Assembly (NCBI GenBank): GCA_019751475.1 | Contig: JAIENH010000539.1 | Coordinates: forward strand, 1 to 10,416 | DNA length: 10,416 nucleotides | Direction: 5' to 3' | Source of the DNA: Cyclobacteriaceae bacterium | Lineage (GTDB): Bacteria > Bacteroidota > Bacteroidia > Cytophagales > Cyclobacteriaceae | Part shown: positions 1,162-10,416 of the stretch, piece after piece | How positions within the stretch are numbered: the first letter of the stretch is position 1 | Layout: each line of letters begins with the position of its first letter | Notes under the pieces: generated by a model | What the model saw: only the letters and a program-made list of their open reading frames with translations | Told to the model about the DNA's origin: nothing | Databases searched by the model: none | Translations under genes and position numbers: made by a program

Positions 1162-3561
1162 TCACTTTTTCTTCTTCGCTACTTTTTTCTTTACCGCCTT
1201 CACTACACGCTTCTTGGTAGCCTTTTTAGCTACTTTCTTAGCCTCCTTCTTTTTAGGCGCAGCTTTCTTGGCGGCCTTTTTAGCCGGAGCATTGACTTTC
1301 ACTGTTGGCTTGCTCATGGCATTAAGAGCTGATCCGGCTTTAAACCAGTCAATCTGATTTTTATTGTAGGTATGATTGACATTTATAGACTCATGGCTGC
1401 CATCGGCATGATGGATAACAAGCGTCAGTGCCTTGTCAGGCGAGAAAGAAGTGAGGCCTGTGATATCAAATGTATCGTCTTCTTTGATTTTGTTGTAGTC
1501 TTCTTTGTTCGCGAAAGTGAGAGCCAACATGCCCTGCTTTTTCAGGTTGGTTTCGTGAATGCGGGCGAATGACTTAACCAGTATGGCGCGCACACCCAGG
1601 TGGCGTGGCTCCATGGCTGCATGCTCACGTGAAGAACCTTCGCCATAGTTTTCATCACCTACTACAATTGAGCCGAGGCCCTTTGCTTTGTAGGCACGCT
1701 GTACTTTTGGTACTTCATCGTAGGCGCCCGTCAATCCGTTCTTTACGCTGTTGATTTTTTCGTTGTAAAAATTGGTCGCACCAATCAACAGGTTGTTTGA
1801 AATGTTGTCCAAGTGCCCGCGGTACTTCAGCCACTTGCCAGCCATGGAGATATGGTCGGTAGTACACTTGCCTTTTGCTTTTATCAGCAAGCGCAGGCCT
1901 TTCAAATCCGTTTTCTCCCAAGGCTTGAAGGGCTCCAGCAACTGGAGTCGATCTGACTTAGGATCTACTTTTACCTGCACCTTGCTTCCGTCTTTAGCTG
2001 GTGCGATAAAACCAGGGTCTTTCACATCAAAGCCCTTCTTTGGCAACTCATCCCCGGTTGGTTCATCCAGCTTTACGCGCACACCAGCTTCGTTTACAAG
2101 TGTGTCGGTAATAGGATTGAACGACAAGTCACCGGCAATTGCGATAGCGGTAACCAATTCAGGTGATCCAACAAAGGCGTATGTGTTCGGGTTGCCATCG
2201 TTACGCGATTGGAAATTCCGGTTGAATGAGTGAACGATGGTATTTTTTTCTTTTTTATCAGCACCCATCCGGCTCCACATACCAATGCAAGGTCCGCAAG
2301 CATTAGCAAATACCTTAGCGCCAATCTTATCAAAGGCGGCAATGAATCCATCGCGCTCAATGGTGTAACGTACCTGCTCTGAACCAGGTGTGATCGTAAA
2401 TTCTGCTTTCGTCTTCAATCCCTTATCAGCTACCTGGCGCGCAAGACTGGCTGCGCGTGAAATGTCTTCATAAGATGAATTCGTGCAAGAGCCTATCAGA
2501 CCCACTTCTACTTTTGTAGGCCAGCCATTTCGGGCTGCTTCTTCTTTCATTTTTGAAATAGGGGTCGCAAGATCAGGCGTGAAGGGACCGTTCAAGTGTG
2601 GCTCTAATTCACTTAAATTGATCTCAACAATTTGATCAAAGTATTTTTCGGGATTGGCATATACTTCCGGATCGGCTGTGAGATGTTCTTTTATCTTGTT
2701 CGCCATCTTAGCTACTTCGGCACGACCGGTGGCGATAAGGTATCGCTCCATAGAAGAATCGTAACCAAACGTGGAAGTGGTAGCGCCAATTTCAGCACCC
2801 ATGTTGCAAATGGTACCCTTGCCCGTGCAACTCATCGAAGTTGCGCCCGGCCCAAAATATTCTACAATAGCTCCTGTGCCACCCTTTACCGTTAGTATGC
2901 CTGCTACTTTCAGGATTACATCCTTGGCGGATGTCCAGCCGTTGAGCTTGCCTGTTAATTTCACCCCGATGAGTTTAGGAAATTTCAATTCCCACGCCAT
3001 ACCCGCCATCACGTCCACAGCGTCTGCACCACCCACACCGATGGCCACCATACCAAGACCTCCTGCATTTACGGTATGCGAGTCGGTACCGATCATCATT
3101 CCTCCAGGGAAGGCGTAGTTCTCCAACACCACTTGATGTATAATGCCGGCTCCAGGCTTCCAAAAGCCGATGCCGTACTTATTCGAAACAGATGACAGGA
3201 AGTTAAACACTTCCTTGCTTTCGGAATTGGCGGCAACAAGATCCTCTTTCGCGCCCGTCTTAGCCACAATCAAGTGGTCGCAGTGTACGGTAGAAGGTAC
3301 TGCCACTTTGGGTCTTCCTGCCGACATGAATTGCAGCAGCGCCATCTGCGCAGTAGCATCTTGCATGGCTACGCGGTCAGGGGCAAAATCTACATATGAC
3401 TTTCCACGCTGAAAGTTGTCGAGCTTTTGGTCAGCAAAAAGATGTGAATAGAGTATTTTTTCAGAAAGGGTGAGGGGTTTTCCTACCACTTTTCTTGCAC
3501 TGGCTATACGGGCCGGCATGGCTGCGTACAACTTCTTAATCATGTCTAAGTCGAATACCAT
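1162..3561 (-). CDS. acn: Aconitate hydratase (aconitase) with lysine-rich C-terminal tail
   Basis: The enzyme interconverts citrate and isocitrate through cis-aconitate in the cytoplasmic TCA cycle, using a [4Fe-4S] cluster. The 799 residues align with the mitochondrial-type aconitase layout. Near the N-terminus is HCDHL (93-97). Cluster ligands are Cys359 (IGSCTNSS), Cys422 and Cys425 ([11 protein letters not shown]), with spacing close to bovine aconitase. The swivel domain carries the catalytic-serine loop YGEGSSREH (639-647). The normal fold ends near [12 protein letters not shown] at about 747. After it come 49 extra residues (751-799), about half of them lysine, described separately. 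The ATG at 3561 gives the usual start [10 protein letters not shown]; Met7 is an alternative. The gene follows the folE terminator, has its own promoter-like sequence, and leads into two small genes with a 4-base gap. It is a likely client of the SUF system encoded nearby. Confidence 0.97.
1165..1311 (-). other. Lysine/alanine-rich, histone-H1-like tail of the aconitase
   Basis: These 49 codons encode aconitase residues 751-799: 23 Lys and 1 Arg, the rest mostly Ala, Val and Pro, in [16 protein letters not shown] repeats without hydrophobic core residues. The segment is in frame with the aconitase, with no stop or shift before it, and it ends in KKKVAKKKK. It is predicted to be disordered and strongly basic. 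Such tails occur in bacterial histone-like proteins and some RNA- or DNA-binding enzymes. Nucleic-acid binding here is an inference from composition. Confidence 0.85.
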
Positions 3562-7383: not shown

Positions 7384-8640
7384 TCAGGTGGTTTGTTGAA
7401 GTTTTCCTGAGATCAACTTATCTACAAATGTTTTGACGGTCTCGTTTTTAATGGCTGCCATCGTCTCGGCCGCGAAGGCATATAAGATCATGCCCATAGC
7501 CATGTCTTTTGAAATGCCACGTGAGCGTAGATAGAATAAGGCCTCTTCATCCAATTGACCGGCAGTGCATCCATGTGAGCACTTCACATCATCGGCCCAG
7601 ATTTCGAGCTGGGGCTTCGTATTTACAGTAGCAGTGTCGCTTAGTAAGATATTGCGATTGGATTGAAATGCGTTCGTCTTTTGCGCATCAGGGCGAACAT
7701 AGATTTTTCCATTGAAGACACCTTTTGAACTCCCCCGCATCACCCCCTTGTACAGTTCGTTGCTGTTTGAATTCGGTTGACGATGATCTACCACCGTGTG
7801 GTTATCCGCAAGGGTTTGATTTGACAACAAGTAGAGTCCGTAGAGATGTCCATCCACACCTTGACCATCGATGATCATGTGCAGATTATTGCGCACAAAT
7901 TGACCGTCCACCGTAAATGTAAAGCTGGATGCCCGTGCAGATGATGCCAGGTGTATGAAGGAGTTGTTTACACTTACCTCCTGGGCAGAGGCTTGAAGAG
8001 TGATGTATTCTAGCCCCGCATTTTCAGCTACTGAAATACTTGCGTGTTTATTCGCAAAATAAGGTTCCCCTGCGTTGGCTACCACGTATTCAATAATCGC
8101 AACATTGCTGCTCTTTCCGATATTGCACGTCCAGCGTGGATTAGAAAACTGATCTGCGGTGGTATCTACATACTGAGCAATGACTACCGGATGTGCCAAC
8201 TCAATGTTTGCTTCAACAGAGAGTGCAACTGTTTCATTAGCAAAACTATGATTGAGAAGCGAGAACGGGTCAATATCTTCTTTCATACGTGCCGGCCCAG
8301 TGCGTTGTAGCTGCAATTCGCGATCAATGATGCGGGATTGTTCTTGGGAAAACCTTCCGTTAACGAATACAATTAGGTTAGTTTCTAAACCAGAAAGAAT
8401 TGAAAGCTCTTTTGTGATCGATGCAGATGCTTCCGAGGTGGTAAATTGAATGCTTTTCTCAAGCGTGCGCGCAATCGGGGCAAACTTATATTCTTCACTT
8501 TTCGAAGAGGGGAGACCCTTTTCTAAAAAGAGATCAAAAGAAGTTTGCTGATCAGAGTTGACAGCACTCTTTCTTTCCGCGAAAGCGGTAGTGATATCGT
8601 TTAGTAAATTTCTTTTTTCTACGGCAGTTTCCATGAGCAT
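7384..8640 (-). CDS. sufD: Fe-S cluster assembly protein SufD
   Basis: SufD pairs with SufB, and with SufC ATPase makes the SufBC2D scaffold on which clusters form. The 418 residues show the expected variable N-terminal part, then a long beta-helix core (about 140-345). The conserved end is ADDVKCSHGCTAGQLDEEAL (349-368), followed by YLRSRGISKDMAMGMILYAFA. Cys354 and His356 correspond in position to E. coli SufD Cys358 and His360, the latter implicated as an interface cluster ligand. E. coli SufD has 423 residues. The ATG at 8640 overlaps the sufC stop (TGATG), a coupling arrangement; ATG at 8634 (residue 3) is an alternative. Similarity to SufB is expected, but the DDVKCSHG context and gene order after sufC identify SufD. 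Confidence 0.95.
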   Translation of the reverse strand: MLMETAVEKRNLLNDITTAFAERKSAVNSDQQTSFDLFLEKGLPSSKSEEYKFAPIARTLEKSIQFTTSEASASITKELSILSGLETNLIVFVNGRFSQEQSRIIDRELQLQRTGPARMKEDIDPFSLLNHSFANETVALSVEANIELAHPVVIAQYVDTTADQFSNPRWTCNIGKSSNVAIIEYVVANAGEPYFANKHASISVAENAGLEYITLQASAQEVSVNNSFIHLASSARASSFTFTVDGQFVRNNLHMIIDGQGVDGHLYGLYLLSNQTLADNHTVVDHRQPNSNSNELYKGVMRGSSKGVFNGKIYVRPDAQKTNAFQSNRNILLSDTATVNTKPQLEIWADDVKCSHGCTAGQLDEEALFYLRSRGISKDMAMGMILYAFAAETMAAIKNETVKTFVDKLISGKLQQTT

Positions 8641-9395
8641 CAGGCCAGGGCCAATTCGTTTTTAATCCAATCGTAACCTTTTGCTTCCAGTTCCAGGGCC
8701 AATTCTTTTGTTCCTGATTTTACAATTCTTCCTTTGTAGAGTACATGAACAAAATCAGGCACGATGTATTCCAGCAGCCGTTGATAATGAGTCACCACGA
8801 TGGTTGCGTTGTTCTTCGAGCGTAGTTTATTTACACCATTAGAGACAATTCGCAATGCATCGATATCAAGGCCTGAGTCGGTTTCATCCAGGATGGAAAG
8901 CCTTGGCTCAAGCATGGCCATCTGGAAAATCTCGTTGCGTTTCTTTTCACCACCCGAAAAGCCTTCATTTAAGGCACGGTTGAGAAGTGATTGATCAATC
9001 TCCACCAACTTCATTTTCTCCTTCATTACCTGAAGAAAAGAAACAGCATCCAGCGTAGGCTGACCGCGGTGTGTGCGAATCTGATTGATAGCCGTCTTCA
9101 TGAAGTTAATGGTGCTCACACCCGGTATTTCTACCGGATATTGAAACGCCATGAAAACTCCTTCACGCGCTCTTTCCTCGGGCTCCATCTCCAGTAAATT
9201 CTTTCCTTGAAATTCGACTTCGCCAACTGTTACTTCATACTCTTCCCTGCCGGCAAGCACCGATGCAAGCGTGCTTTTGCCCGATCCATTCGGTCCCATG
9301 ATGGCATGCACTTCACCAGCCTTTACTTCCAGGTTGATCCCGTTGAGGATTTGCTTTTCTTCAATCTTAGCGTGGAGATTTTTTATTGATAGCAT
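8640..9395 (-). CDS. sufC: Fe-S cluster assembly ATPase SufC
   Basis: SufC is the cytoplasmic ABC-type ATPase that drives structural change in the SufBC2D scaffold. The 251 residues (E. coli SufC has 248) hold a full ABC set: Walker A GPNGSGKST (34-42), Q-loop Gln85 (AFQYPVEIPGVS), ABC signature FSGGEKKR (146-153), Walker B ending LSILDETDSGLD with Asp170 and Glu171, and H-loop His203 (VTHYQRLL). FSGGEKKRNEIFQ and DETDSGLDIDAL are typical of SufC rather than transporter ATPases, and no membrane partner is nearby. The ATG at 9395 gives the normal MLSIKNLHAKI start. In many genomes sufC directly follows sufB; here a four-helix-bundle gene with AT-rich repeats lies between them. Confidence 0.97.
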   Translation of the reverse strand: MLSIKNLHAKIEEKQILNGINLEVKAGEVHAIMGPNGSGKSTLASVLAGREEYEVTVGEVEFQGKNLLEMEPEERAREGVFMAFQYPVEIPGVSTINFMKTAINQIRTHRGQPTLDAVSFLQVMKEKMKLVEIDQSLLNRALNEGFSGGEKKRNEIFQMAMLEPRLSILDETDSGLDIDALRIVSNGVNKLRSKNNATIVVTHYQRLLEYIVPDFVHVLYKGRIVKSGTKELALELEAKGYDWIKNELALA

Positions 9396-9403
9396 TTAAC
9401 TTT

Positions 9404-9433
9404 AGATTCAAAATTTAACATTCAAAATTCAAG
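9404..9433. repeat. AT-rich tandem 14-mer, left (sufC-side) flank of the four-helix-bundle gene
   Basis: Two adjacent 14-base units begin at 9406 and 9420 (ATTCAAAATTTAAC then ATTCAAAATTCAAG). Positions 9404-9418 are an exact 15-base inverted match to 9866-9880. The second unit runs into the end of the four-helix-bundle gene and contains its stop codon and last codons. The decamer ATTCAAAATT occurs in both units. Confidence 0.85.
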
Positions 9434-9856
9434 ATTGGATTTGCCTTCGTATTGCAATTGTGGTTCATGTACATACTTGGAGCCTTTATATTCTGAGGTT
9501 TTTAAGTATTTGATAAAGCCTGAAAGTTGTTGACCAACGTCTACAGTTTTGTTAAAAAGTTGTTCGTATTCAAGCTGGGTTATGTATTGCCTATCAAATG
9601 CGCGATGTAGCTGGGATCTTAATTCTCCTGCTGAACCTTTAGCGATATAAAGAAATTGGATAAACTCTTTCTTACCACCTCGTTCGAATCCCTCTGCGAT
9701 GTTATCCATTATTGAACCAGATGATCGATTTATTTGATCTTTTAATGAGTAGTCCTTTGAAAGCCTATCTTTTTGTGCAATGAGATGTAATGATTGAGAC
9801 AATTCGCGAGCTGCTTGCCAAACTTTCAAATCTTCAAATCGCTCAATTTTTCCCAT
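9422..9856 (-). CDS. Four-helix-bundle protein (23S rRNA intervening-sequence / S23 family)
   Basis: The 144 residues match the family first known from proteins encoded inside 23S rRNA intervening sequences and distantly related to the Avd accessory protein of diversity-generating retroelements. Visible hallmarks are IERFEDLKVWQAARELS (4-20), LKDQINRSSGSIMDNIAEGFERG (38-60) with the NIAEGF core, EFIQFLYIAKGSAGELRSQL (64-83) and a fourth helix around 95-118. The last 25 or so residues, with several Tyr and Lys, extend past the usual 115-125-residue length, and the final codons lie in the flanking repeat. The ATG at 9856 gives the standard start MGKIERF; an in-frame TTG at 9862 is less likely. 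Family members form pentamers and bind nucleic acid in the Avd case, but the cellular function of stand-alone copies is unknown. It is co-oriented with and embedded in the suf operon. Confidence 0.93.
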   Translation of the reverse strand: MGKIERFEDLKVWQAARELSQSLHLIAQKDRLSKDYSLKDQINRSSGSIMDNIAEGFERGGKKEFIQFLYIAKGSAGELRSQLHRAFDRQYITQLEYEQLFNKTVDVGQQLSGFIKYLKTSEYKGSKYVHEPQLQYEGKSNLEF

Positions 9857-9865
9857 TCCCAAATT

Positions 9866-9895
9866 TTAAATTTTGAATCTGAAATTTTGAATTTA
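9866..9895. repeat. AT-rich tandem 14-mer, right (sufB-side) flank of the four-helix-bundle gene
   Basis: Two adjacent 14-base units begin at 9868 and 9882 (AAATTTTGAATCTG then AAATTTTGAATTTA). They are the reverse complement type of the left-flank units and carry AATTTTGAAT at the same 14-base spacing. Positions 9866-9880 are perfectly complementary to 9404-9418. The repeat ends two bases from the sufB stop codon. Confidence 0.85.
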
Positions 9896-9896
9896 A

Positions 9897-10416
9897 TTAT
9901 CCAACACTTCCTTCCAGCGTAAGCGCCAACAGCTTCTGAGCTTCGACAGCAAACTCCATAGGCAATTGACTTAATACTTCTTTTGCATAGCCATTAACGA
10001 TAAGCGCTACGGCAGCTTCTTCATCAATACCTCGCTGACGGCAATAGAAAATCTGGTCTTCGCCAATTTTAGATGTAGTAGCCTCATGTTCTACTTTGGA
10101 AGAACTGTTCTCTACATCGATGTAGGGAAATGTATGTGCACCACACTTGTCGCCCATGAGCAAAGAGTCGCACTGCGAGAAGTTGCGCGCATTTTCTGCA
10201 CGCTTCAAAATATGCACTTGCCCGCGGTAGCTATTTTGCGACTTGCCTGCCGAGATACCTTTTGATACAATTCGCGAACGTGTGTTCTTGCCAATGTGAA
10301 TCATCTTGGTGCCTGTGTCAGCTTGCTGATAATTATTCGTTACCGCTACGGAATAAAACTCTCCATTGGAATAATCGCCCTTCAAAATGCAGGAAGGATA
10401 CTTCCAGGTAATGGCC
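9897..10416 (-). CDS. sufB: Fe-S cluster assembly protein SufB, C-terminal part (5' end beyond the window)
   Basis: The frame is open from the right edge to a TAA at 9899-9897, giving the last 172 residues; a full SufB has about 480-495. SufB is the scaffold subunit that accepts sulfur from SufE and holds the nascent cluster with SufD and SufC. Diagnostic segments are [20 protein letters not shown] at the visible start, [21 protein letters not shown], and [20 protein letters not shown], then [26 protein letters not shown]. The Cys in GDKCGAHT (codon 10145-10143) corresponds to E. coli SufB Cys405, the cluster/sulfur site. An apparent TTG start at 10385 is internal and not a gene start. The end is intact, so the following insert has not disrupted SufB. 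Confidence 0.97.

Follow-up and report, generated by a model that had tools for sequence, protein, structure and literature searches.

The window analysed here, a 10,416-nucleotide contig (G000:C756) of a 3.93-Mb draft genome of a Cyclobacteriaceae bacterium, carries between sufB and sufC a segment (positions 9402 to 9896) that we read, with a probability of roughly 0.6, as a ~0.5-kb promoterless cassette of a large, multiphylum family whose members lie in sense orientation within operons and would be expressed by read-through. In this layout, a gene for a four-helix-bundle protein of family PF05635 stands between an inward-pointing arm of heptamer repeats and a second, inverted heptamer arm. 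The anatomy of these cassettes is our strongest claim and a general one.

The minus strand of the window holds, in order, the end of sufB (its C-terminal part, 9897 to 10415, from the open reading frame and profile matches), the small gene (9422 to 9856), sufC (8640 to 9395, from the open reading frame and a profile match), sufD, and further genes. The small gene encodes 144 amino acids from an ATG at 9856 to a stop at 9422 to 9424, with a TTG start at 9862 also open, and its product matches PF05635 (23S_rRNA_IVP) at 116.2 bits against a curated cutoff of 33.8 and TIGR02436 at 112.4 bits against a cutoff of 24, which agrees with the first-pass annotation of an S23/IVS-type gene between sufB and sufC. 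Structural relatives in the PDB are 2GSC and 2RLD; the former (Xcc0516) is reportedly, in the words of the title of Lin's 2006 study, an assembly of five four-helix bundles.

Around this gene, a pattern search placed the decamer ATTCAAAATT at 9406 to 9415 and 9420 to 9429 on the plus strand and at 9869 to 9878 and 9883 to 9892 on the minus strand, exactly as the first-pass annotation had described it: four copies, two per side, in opposite orientations and with a 14-base spacing in both flanks. Its other local readings were equally accurate, in that 9404 to 9418 (plus strand) is the exact reverse complement of 9866 to 9880 (minus strand), a perfect 15-base inverted repeat, and in that the repeats abut the sufB stop (9897 to 9899) and the second decamer copy (9420 to 9429) overlaps the stop codon of the gene itself. 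The full arms are longer: an upstream arm (relative to the gene) of degenerate heptamers at 9862 to 9896, ending at the sufB stop, and a downstream arm at 9402 to 9436 with the same heptamers in reverse complement, the two being 35 nt long and 86% complementary (arm score 45, z 9.6). The downstream arm takes in the final 15 bases of the gene and stops 6 bases short of the sufC ATG.

The genome has 70 copies of the decamer, compared to 10 of the same pattern read backwards, which is more than chance. The decamer is nevertheless one local form of a more general repeat: the true repeat unit is 7 bases (14 being 2 × 7). The source genome contains 10 PF05635 matches, and inverted repeats were found by eye around several of the other nine genes (L001, L002, L004, L005, and L007), with heptamers that differ from copy to copy, such as AGTAGGC (L004), TATGAGA (L001), and AGGTTAG (L005). 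Because the other copies carry different heptamers, we rejected the decamer, or any fixed 14-base unit, as the mark by which to recognize further copies and replaced it with the heptamer view; the first-pass annotation was thus right in spirit and wrong in the mark that it proposed.

We assembled 126 unique PF05635 genes from the best-scoring matches listed in congeners, from suf-junction loci, and from the source genome, with a few from order-level relatives, and dropped one with a short flank. Among the remaining 125, the match of a gene's own upstream flank to its own inverted downstream flank exceeded the 95th percentile of swapped pairs in 85 and the 99th in 40, and it beat all 20 shuffles in 94, whereas a same-strand control with the downstream flank left uncomplemented put 8 of the 125 above the 95th percentile. 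Seven was the best of lags 4 to 12 in 82 of the 91 upstream flanks that scored and in 68 of the 84 downstream flanks that did, with lag 8 next, and a lag-7 tract (score of ≥9) was present on at least one side in 100 of 125 genes and on both sides in 51. By comparison, such tracts accompanied 13 of the 126 small genes that served as controls from genome G041, a set called under a slightly different rule than the cassette genes, and 25 of 231 intergenic gaps; an arm score of ≥25 was reached by 3 of the 126 control genes versus 85 of 125 cassettes. When orthologues were collapsed to 27 sites by protein class and neighbor, heptads were in the majority at 22 and arms at 21.

The heptamers also share a phase. 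A phase-free alignment of tracts from the genus set together with loci from named taxa (described below) yielded A-G-[T/A]-N-N-N-N in 119 upstream tracts, and the complementary strand of 100 downstream tracts gave the same phase; the same phase on opposite strands of the two sides means that both arms point inward. The logos contain 2.52 bits upstream and 2.56 bits downstream, descriptive values from tracts that are not independent. Controls on the upstream tracts, with 15 restarts as against 40 for the data, reached at most 1.82 bits when positions were permuted and at most 2.19 bits when strands were randomized. We considered on this logo that heptamers might serve to place stop codons in all three frames, and dropped the idea. 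What is common to the cassettes is thus a 7-base period, inward polarity, the A-G-[T/A]-N4 phase, and two arms that match each other; the arm sequence itself is locus specific.

In 116 of the 120 genus-set loci (of 125) and 64 of the 72 named loci (of 80) for which orientation was judged, both neighbors ran in the direction of the PF05635 gene, as they did at 9 of 12 annotated cyanobacterial plasmid loci; among the G041 control genes the count was 44 of 76 (Fisher p 8e-12 against the genus set). Such placement fits a gene that has no promoter of its own and survives where an operon transcribes it. The PF05635 protein is under purifying selection, with dN/dS between 0.02 and 0.24 and a median of 0.09 over 24 close, overlapping pairs with dS between 0.05 and 2; pairs with dS of <0.05 were excluded from this median, two of them having ratios of 1.15 and 0.55.

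The same architecture extends well beyond the genus. From 568 confirmed places we kept 80 named loci, 76 with flanks sufficient for the arm test and 78 for the comparison of proteins with arms; the 80 were found with a narrower PF05635 alignment and are biased towards one part of the family. Arms exceeded the 95th percentile of swapped pairs in 45 of the 76, among them loci of Bacteroidota, Ignavibacteriota, Pseudomonadota, Thermodesulfobacteriota, and Fibrobacterota, and strong lag-7 tracts (≥12) accompanied 35 loci on the upstream side and 31 on the downstream side. By eye, the arms of four loci appear to have 8-base rather than 7-base units (L297 and L314, Thermodesulfobacteriota; L292, Lambdaproteobacteria; L327, Bacteroidales). 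Of 38 matched cyanobacterial plasmid records, 12 were opened, and 10 have inverted arms, L354 having directly oriented heptamers on its two sides and L358 only a weak match. Neighbors at the plasmid loci include cas6/cas4, cas10/cmr3, and transfer genes, so that one architecture recurs in the unrelated suf, fad, cas, and tra operons. Among named cassettes without shared neighbors, protein class and heptamer are correlated (r 0.277, p 5e-4).

Evidence that the cassettes relocate comes from the fad operon, whose junctions we compared in 17 flavobacterial-type genomes. The fadB-fadA junction contains a cassette with TGTATAA-type heptamers (cassette A) in three of them (L370, L373, and L380) and one with AGTATTA-type heptamers (cassette B), whose protein is 40 to 49% identical to that of cassette A, in six (L368, L369, L372, L374, L376, and L379). 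In L371 the junction is occupied by a gene for a Y1 transposase (Y1_Tnp, PF01797) with palindromic-looking flanks of its own, in a further six genomes (L366, L375, L377, L378, L381, and L382) it has no gene, and in L367 the contig ends too early. L366 has cassette A at the marR-fadB junction and a 124-base gene-less arm pair at fadB-fadA; L367 has a 143-base gene-less arm pair at marR-fadB and a cassette gene after fadB. Therefore, different units occupy a single junction, and a single class of unit, with arms of its own, occupies different junctions, the pattern that defines a mobile cassette; the class with AATCGGT heptamers, likewise, is found at several unrelated junctions within the genus. 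We conclude that the cassette likely moves as a unit. A contig filed as Limnohabitans (L318) also bears a flavobacterial-type fad operon with a cassette and is probably misbinned.

A sufB match was found in 57 of 62 congeners and the sufB-sufC junction was readable in 55, of which 10 contain the gene, 4 contain remnants (G001, G018, G031, and G052, named by eye, with a profile match in G001 only), and 41 lack it; the comparison of relatives that the first-pass annotation called for thus shows that the gene is far from universal at this spot and that empty junctions exist. Several of the 41 gene-less junctions hold heptamer arrays or hairpins instead, and the 772-base junction of G041 (L111) has an unrelated gene of ~228 amino acids without a Pfam match. 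The presence pattern requires 9 changes on a SufBC tree in which many forks are weak, and the close sisters G044 and G048 differ, the former with the gene and the latter empty. In one moderately supported protein clade of 12 or 13 members, 10 are suf-site genes; the others (L173, L183, and L202) come from other positions in genomes with an empty suf site. The proteins of G034 and G044 are closer than other pairs of equal SufBC distance. We read the suf site as one of long residence and frequent loss, perhaps with some transfer. The first-pass proposal of a mobile unit that lands between genes without breaking them accordingly holds in part: no gene is broken, the unit is present or absent among relatives, and similar cassettes sit elsewhere, whereas old residence with repeated loss accounts for much of the suf-site pattern. 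As a side observation, one bin (G013) contains a second, more distant sufB-sufC pair (L125, 77% in SufB), which may be a paralogue or contamination.

A number of results weigh against the reading of these loci as mobile, self-paired cassettes. No insertion event was observed directly, and no target-site duplication was recognized at junctions judged by eye only. At the suf site the genes are nearly a single clade, so that descent plus loss explains much of the pattern, and the comparison of protein with SufBC distances gives a Mantel r of 0.41 (p 0.011) alongside rank correlations of 0.02 and −0.10, a disagreement that shows neither clean descent nor transfer. Neither arms nor heptads were detected in 15 of 125 genus-set genes, and one 7-member site group (L158, L132, L164, and others) lacks heptads. 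Arm similarity in the genus set is found mostly between cassettes that share a neighbor: for pairs at 50 to 80% protein identity, arms are similar in 12 to 20% of those without a shared neighbor and 51 to 97% of those with one. Among the closest named-cassette pairs (≥65% identity), the share that scores on the wrong strand is nearly that on the right one (0.54 versus 0.58). Dispersed AGTNGGC repeats are commoner in genomes with the matching gene class (p 0.0002), an association that falls to p 0.089 once a cassette's own arms are allowed for, under settings of our own choosing (classes cut at 59% identity, with four arm hits allowed per genome). Finally, repeat-tract lengths are broad with no sharp peak at five repeats, and we accordingly rejected the idea of five repeats per arm matching a five-fold ring.

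We hypothesize that what holds such a unit together is a pairing of protein and heptamer. Each subunit of the protein would recognize one AGW-marked heptamer in the arms of its own cassette, much as each subunit of TRAP (the trp RNA-binding attenuation protein) binds one triplet repeat, and this predicted pairing could keep arms and gene together while the cassette, placed in sense between codirectional genes and probably transcribed by operon read-through, would move rarely as a unit and be lost often. In its fullest form the proposal makes PF05635 proteins ring-shaped readers of AGW heptamers, the gene with its arms an operon-dwelling selfish element, and gene-less hairpins its dependants; we offer this as a tentative model, at clearly less than even odds. 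Gene-less heptamer hairpins of other heptamer types do occur in G041, as judged by eye (L231:9229-9288, L217:19630-19888, and L224:13178-13255).

Of the competing explanations, a somewhat unlikely one is that the element acts at the RNA level as an intervening sequence, its arms pairing in the polycistronic mRNA so that RNase III frees the cassette and selection acts on the stem. Sense orientation within operons would suit it, the arms do pair when the transcript of the window is folded in silico, and passages of PMC4990558 describe 23S rRNA intervening sequences with this protein family whose complementary ends are cut by RNase III. However, a stem would not need tandem heptads, the overall fold energy of the transcript is ordinary (z −1.07), and a wobble test for selection acting on the arms as RNA gave no signal, with no excess of G-U-compatible changes among arm mismatches (99 versus 87, p 0.42, in 80 elements); the G-U and fold results lower the case for a selected RNA stem. 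Movement in trans by a resident enzyme, as the first-pass annotation supposed in invoking a factor encoded elsewhere, with the heptamer arms as ends of a non-autonomous DNA element and gene-less hairpins as its deletion derivatives, strikes us as unlikely. The hairpins seen by eye are in keeping with it, and in 23 sampled genomes heptad density tracks PF05635 copy number (Spearman 0.61, p 0.002) and is higher in the 12 with PF05635 (11 order-level genomes plus G041) than in the 11 without (p 0.013), both values coming from small samples and being uncorrected for ancestry; G069, with no PF05635 match, has heptamer hairpins all the same. Against it, the arms have no fixed end sequence and no mover was identified: reverse transcriptase (PF00078) is matched in 21 and Y1 transposase (PF01797) in 53 of the 62 congeners, and G007 and G018, with 5 (among the matches listed) and 9 cassette genes, match neither family, for which reason we rejected both as general movers, other transposase families not having been searched.

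That the gene is an ordinary host gene, an old operon accessory with a repeat-based regulatory leader that is inherited vertically and lost in many lineages, would account for the near-single clade, for the purifying selection, and for the loss that the suf remnants record. We regard it as distinctly unlikely given that operons as unrelated as suf, fad, cas, and tra bear one architecture, that two distant cassettes and a Y1 gene share the fad junction, and that one cassette class sits at two junctions. Highly improbable, finally, is that the heptamer arrays are incidental, slippage-prone intergenic filler with the gene a bystander. Heptamer tracts are indeed common in the absence of the gene (400 kb of G041 contains 29 of them) and are described elsewhere in the sections of PMC4679880 consulted, but filler does not account for the contrast between 100 of 125 cassettes and 13 of 126 control genes, for arms that match each other in inverted orientation, or for an inward AGW phase that is alike on both sides.

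On the preferred reading of a selfish or commensal cassette, the element most closely resembles 23S rRNA intervening sequences (IVSs) and systems of repetitive extragenic palindromic (REP) sequences with their REP-associated tyrosine transposases (RAYTs). IVSs with an S23p/IVP frame, as in Coxiella and Leptospira, have the same protein family encoded in sense orientation in the transcript and looped between complementary ends, here the 35-nt arms with 86% complementarity and the inverted arms of 85 of 125 relatives. The Coxiella IVS is ~0.43 kb long with complementary ends that are cut by RNase III, an older idea giving it a mobile origin, according to parts of PMC4990558. Unlike an IVS, the cassette lies between protein genes, in this case sufB and sufC, rather than inside a 23S rRNA gene, and its arms are locus-specific tandem heptamers; its gene is under purifying selection, whereas the Coxiella frame is reported in those parts to be decaying.

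REP sequences are fixed palindromes associated with genes for a Y1 transposase, the RAYT. The cassette shares with them the form of a small intergenic unit with one gene between repeats, gene-less hairpins seen by eye being putative relatives elsewhere, and its fadB-fadA junction is also used by a Y1 gene, but the gene encodes a four-helix bundle and not a Y1 (IS200-like) transposase, and the repeats are heptamers of variable sequence. With arm sequences that differ by cassette, there is likewise no fixed terminal inverted repeat of the kind that marks miniature inverted-repeat transposable elements and other DNA transposons. The relation to Avd of diversity-generating retroelements, which the first-pass annotation named, is weak: Avd is a remote four-helix-bundle relative (PMC10053308, as excerpted), and the bAvd and DivGenRetAVD profile matches fall below their cutoffs (an Avd match of 23.3 bits versus a cutoff of 80). 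Unlike in such retroelements, 41 of 62 congeners show no reverse transcriptase match and none stands beside the gene, the single match in the source genome being on contig C757; template and variable repeats were not searched for.

Heptamer repeats of a comparable kind are known from cyanobacteria as short tandemly repeated repetitive (STRR) sequences. TAACTGA repeats in Beggiatoaceae, Cyanobacteria, and Bacteroidetes are also seven-base tandem intergenic units in overlapping phyla, described in portions of MacGregor 2015 (PMC4679880) as direct and upstream of many genes; the main text of that paper does not contain the terms "four helix," "intervening," or "S23." A 2013 paper (PMC3936711), in the extracts available, places 18 PF05635 genes within cas loci, in many cases alongside Cas4 or Cas6, and treats them as CRISPR-Cas associated in function. 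Two of our cyanobacterial loci have a PF05635 gene with cas6 and cas4 in the place that those extracts describe, one with inverted arms and the other with direct heptamers; the arms and the other host operons suggest that the gene is a passenger there. Among the open-access full-text papers that our searches returned, judged by titles and abstract openings, we recognized none tying PF05635 genes to heptamer arms. The arms, with the reading of the cassette as selfish, suggest a hitherto unrecognized kind of small selfish element between operon genes.

Elsewhere on the minus strand of the window, positions 1162 to 3561 encode a protein with an unusual-looking long lysine- and alanine-rich C-terminal tail, which we take from its sequence to be aconitase-like, and positions 691 to 1157 hold two small adjoining genes of 72 and 83 amino acids, presumably a DUF2283/DUF4258-type pair.

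No function is established for PF05635, a widespread family that is usually described by its first home in 23S rRNA or by neighbors such as cas genes. If its members are carried in cassettes with heptamer arms, readings of these genes by the company they keep would be unsafe, the origin of rRNA intervening sequences would become testable, and the heptamer repeats of Bacteroidota, Cyanobacteria, and others would gain a candidate partner protein. If the proteins do read heptamers, the 23S rRNA IVSs would be one special landing site, and the presence of the family in cas loci would be hitchhiking.
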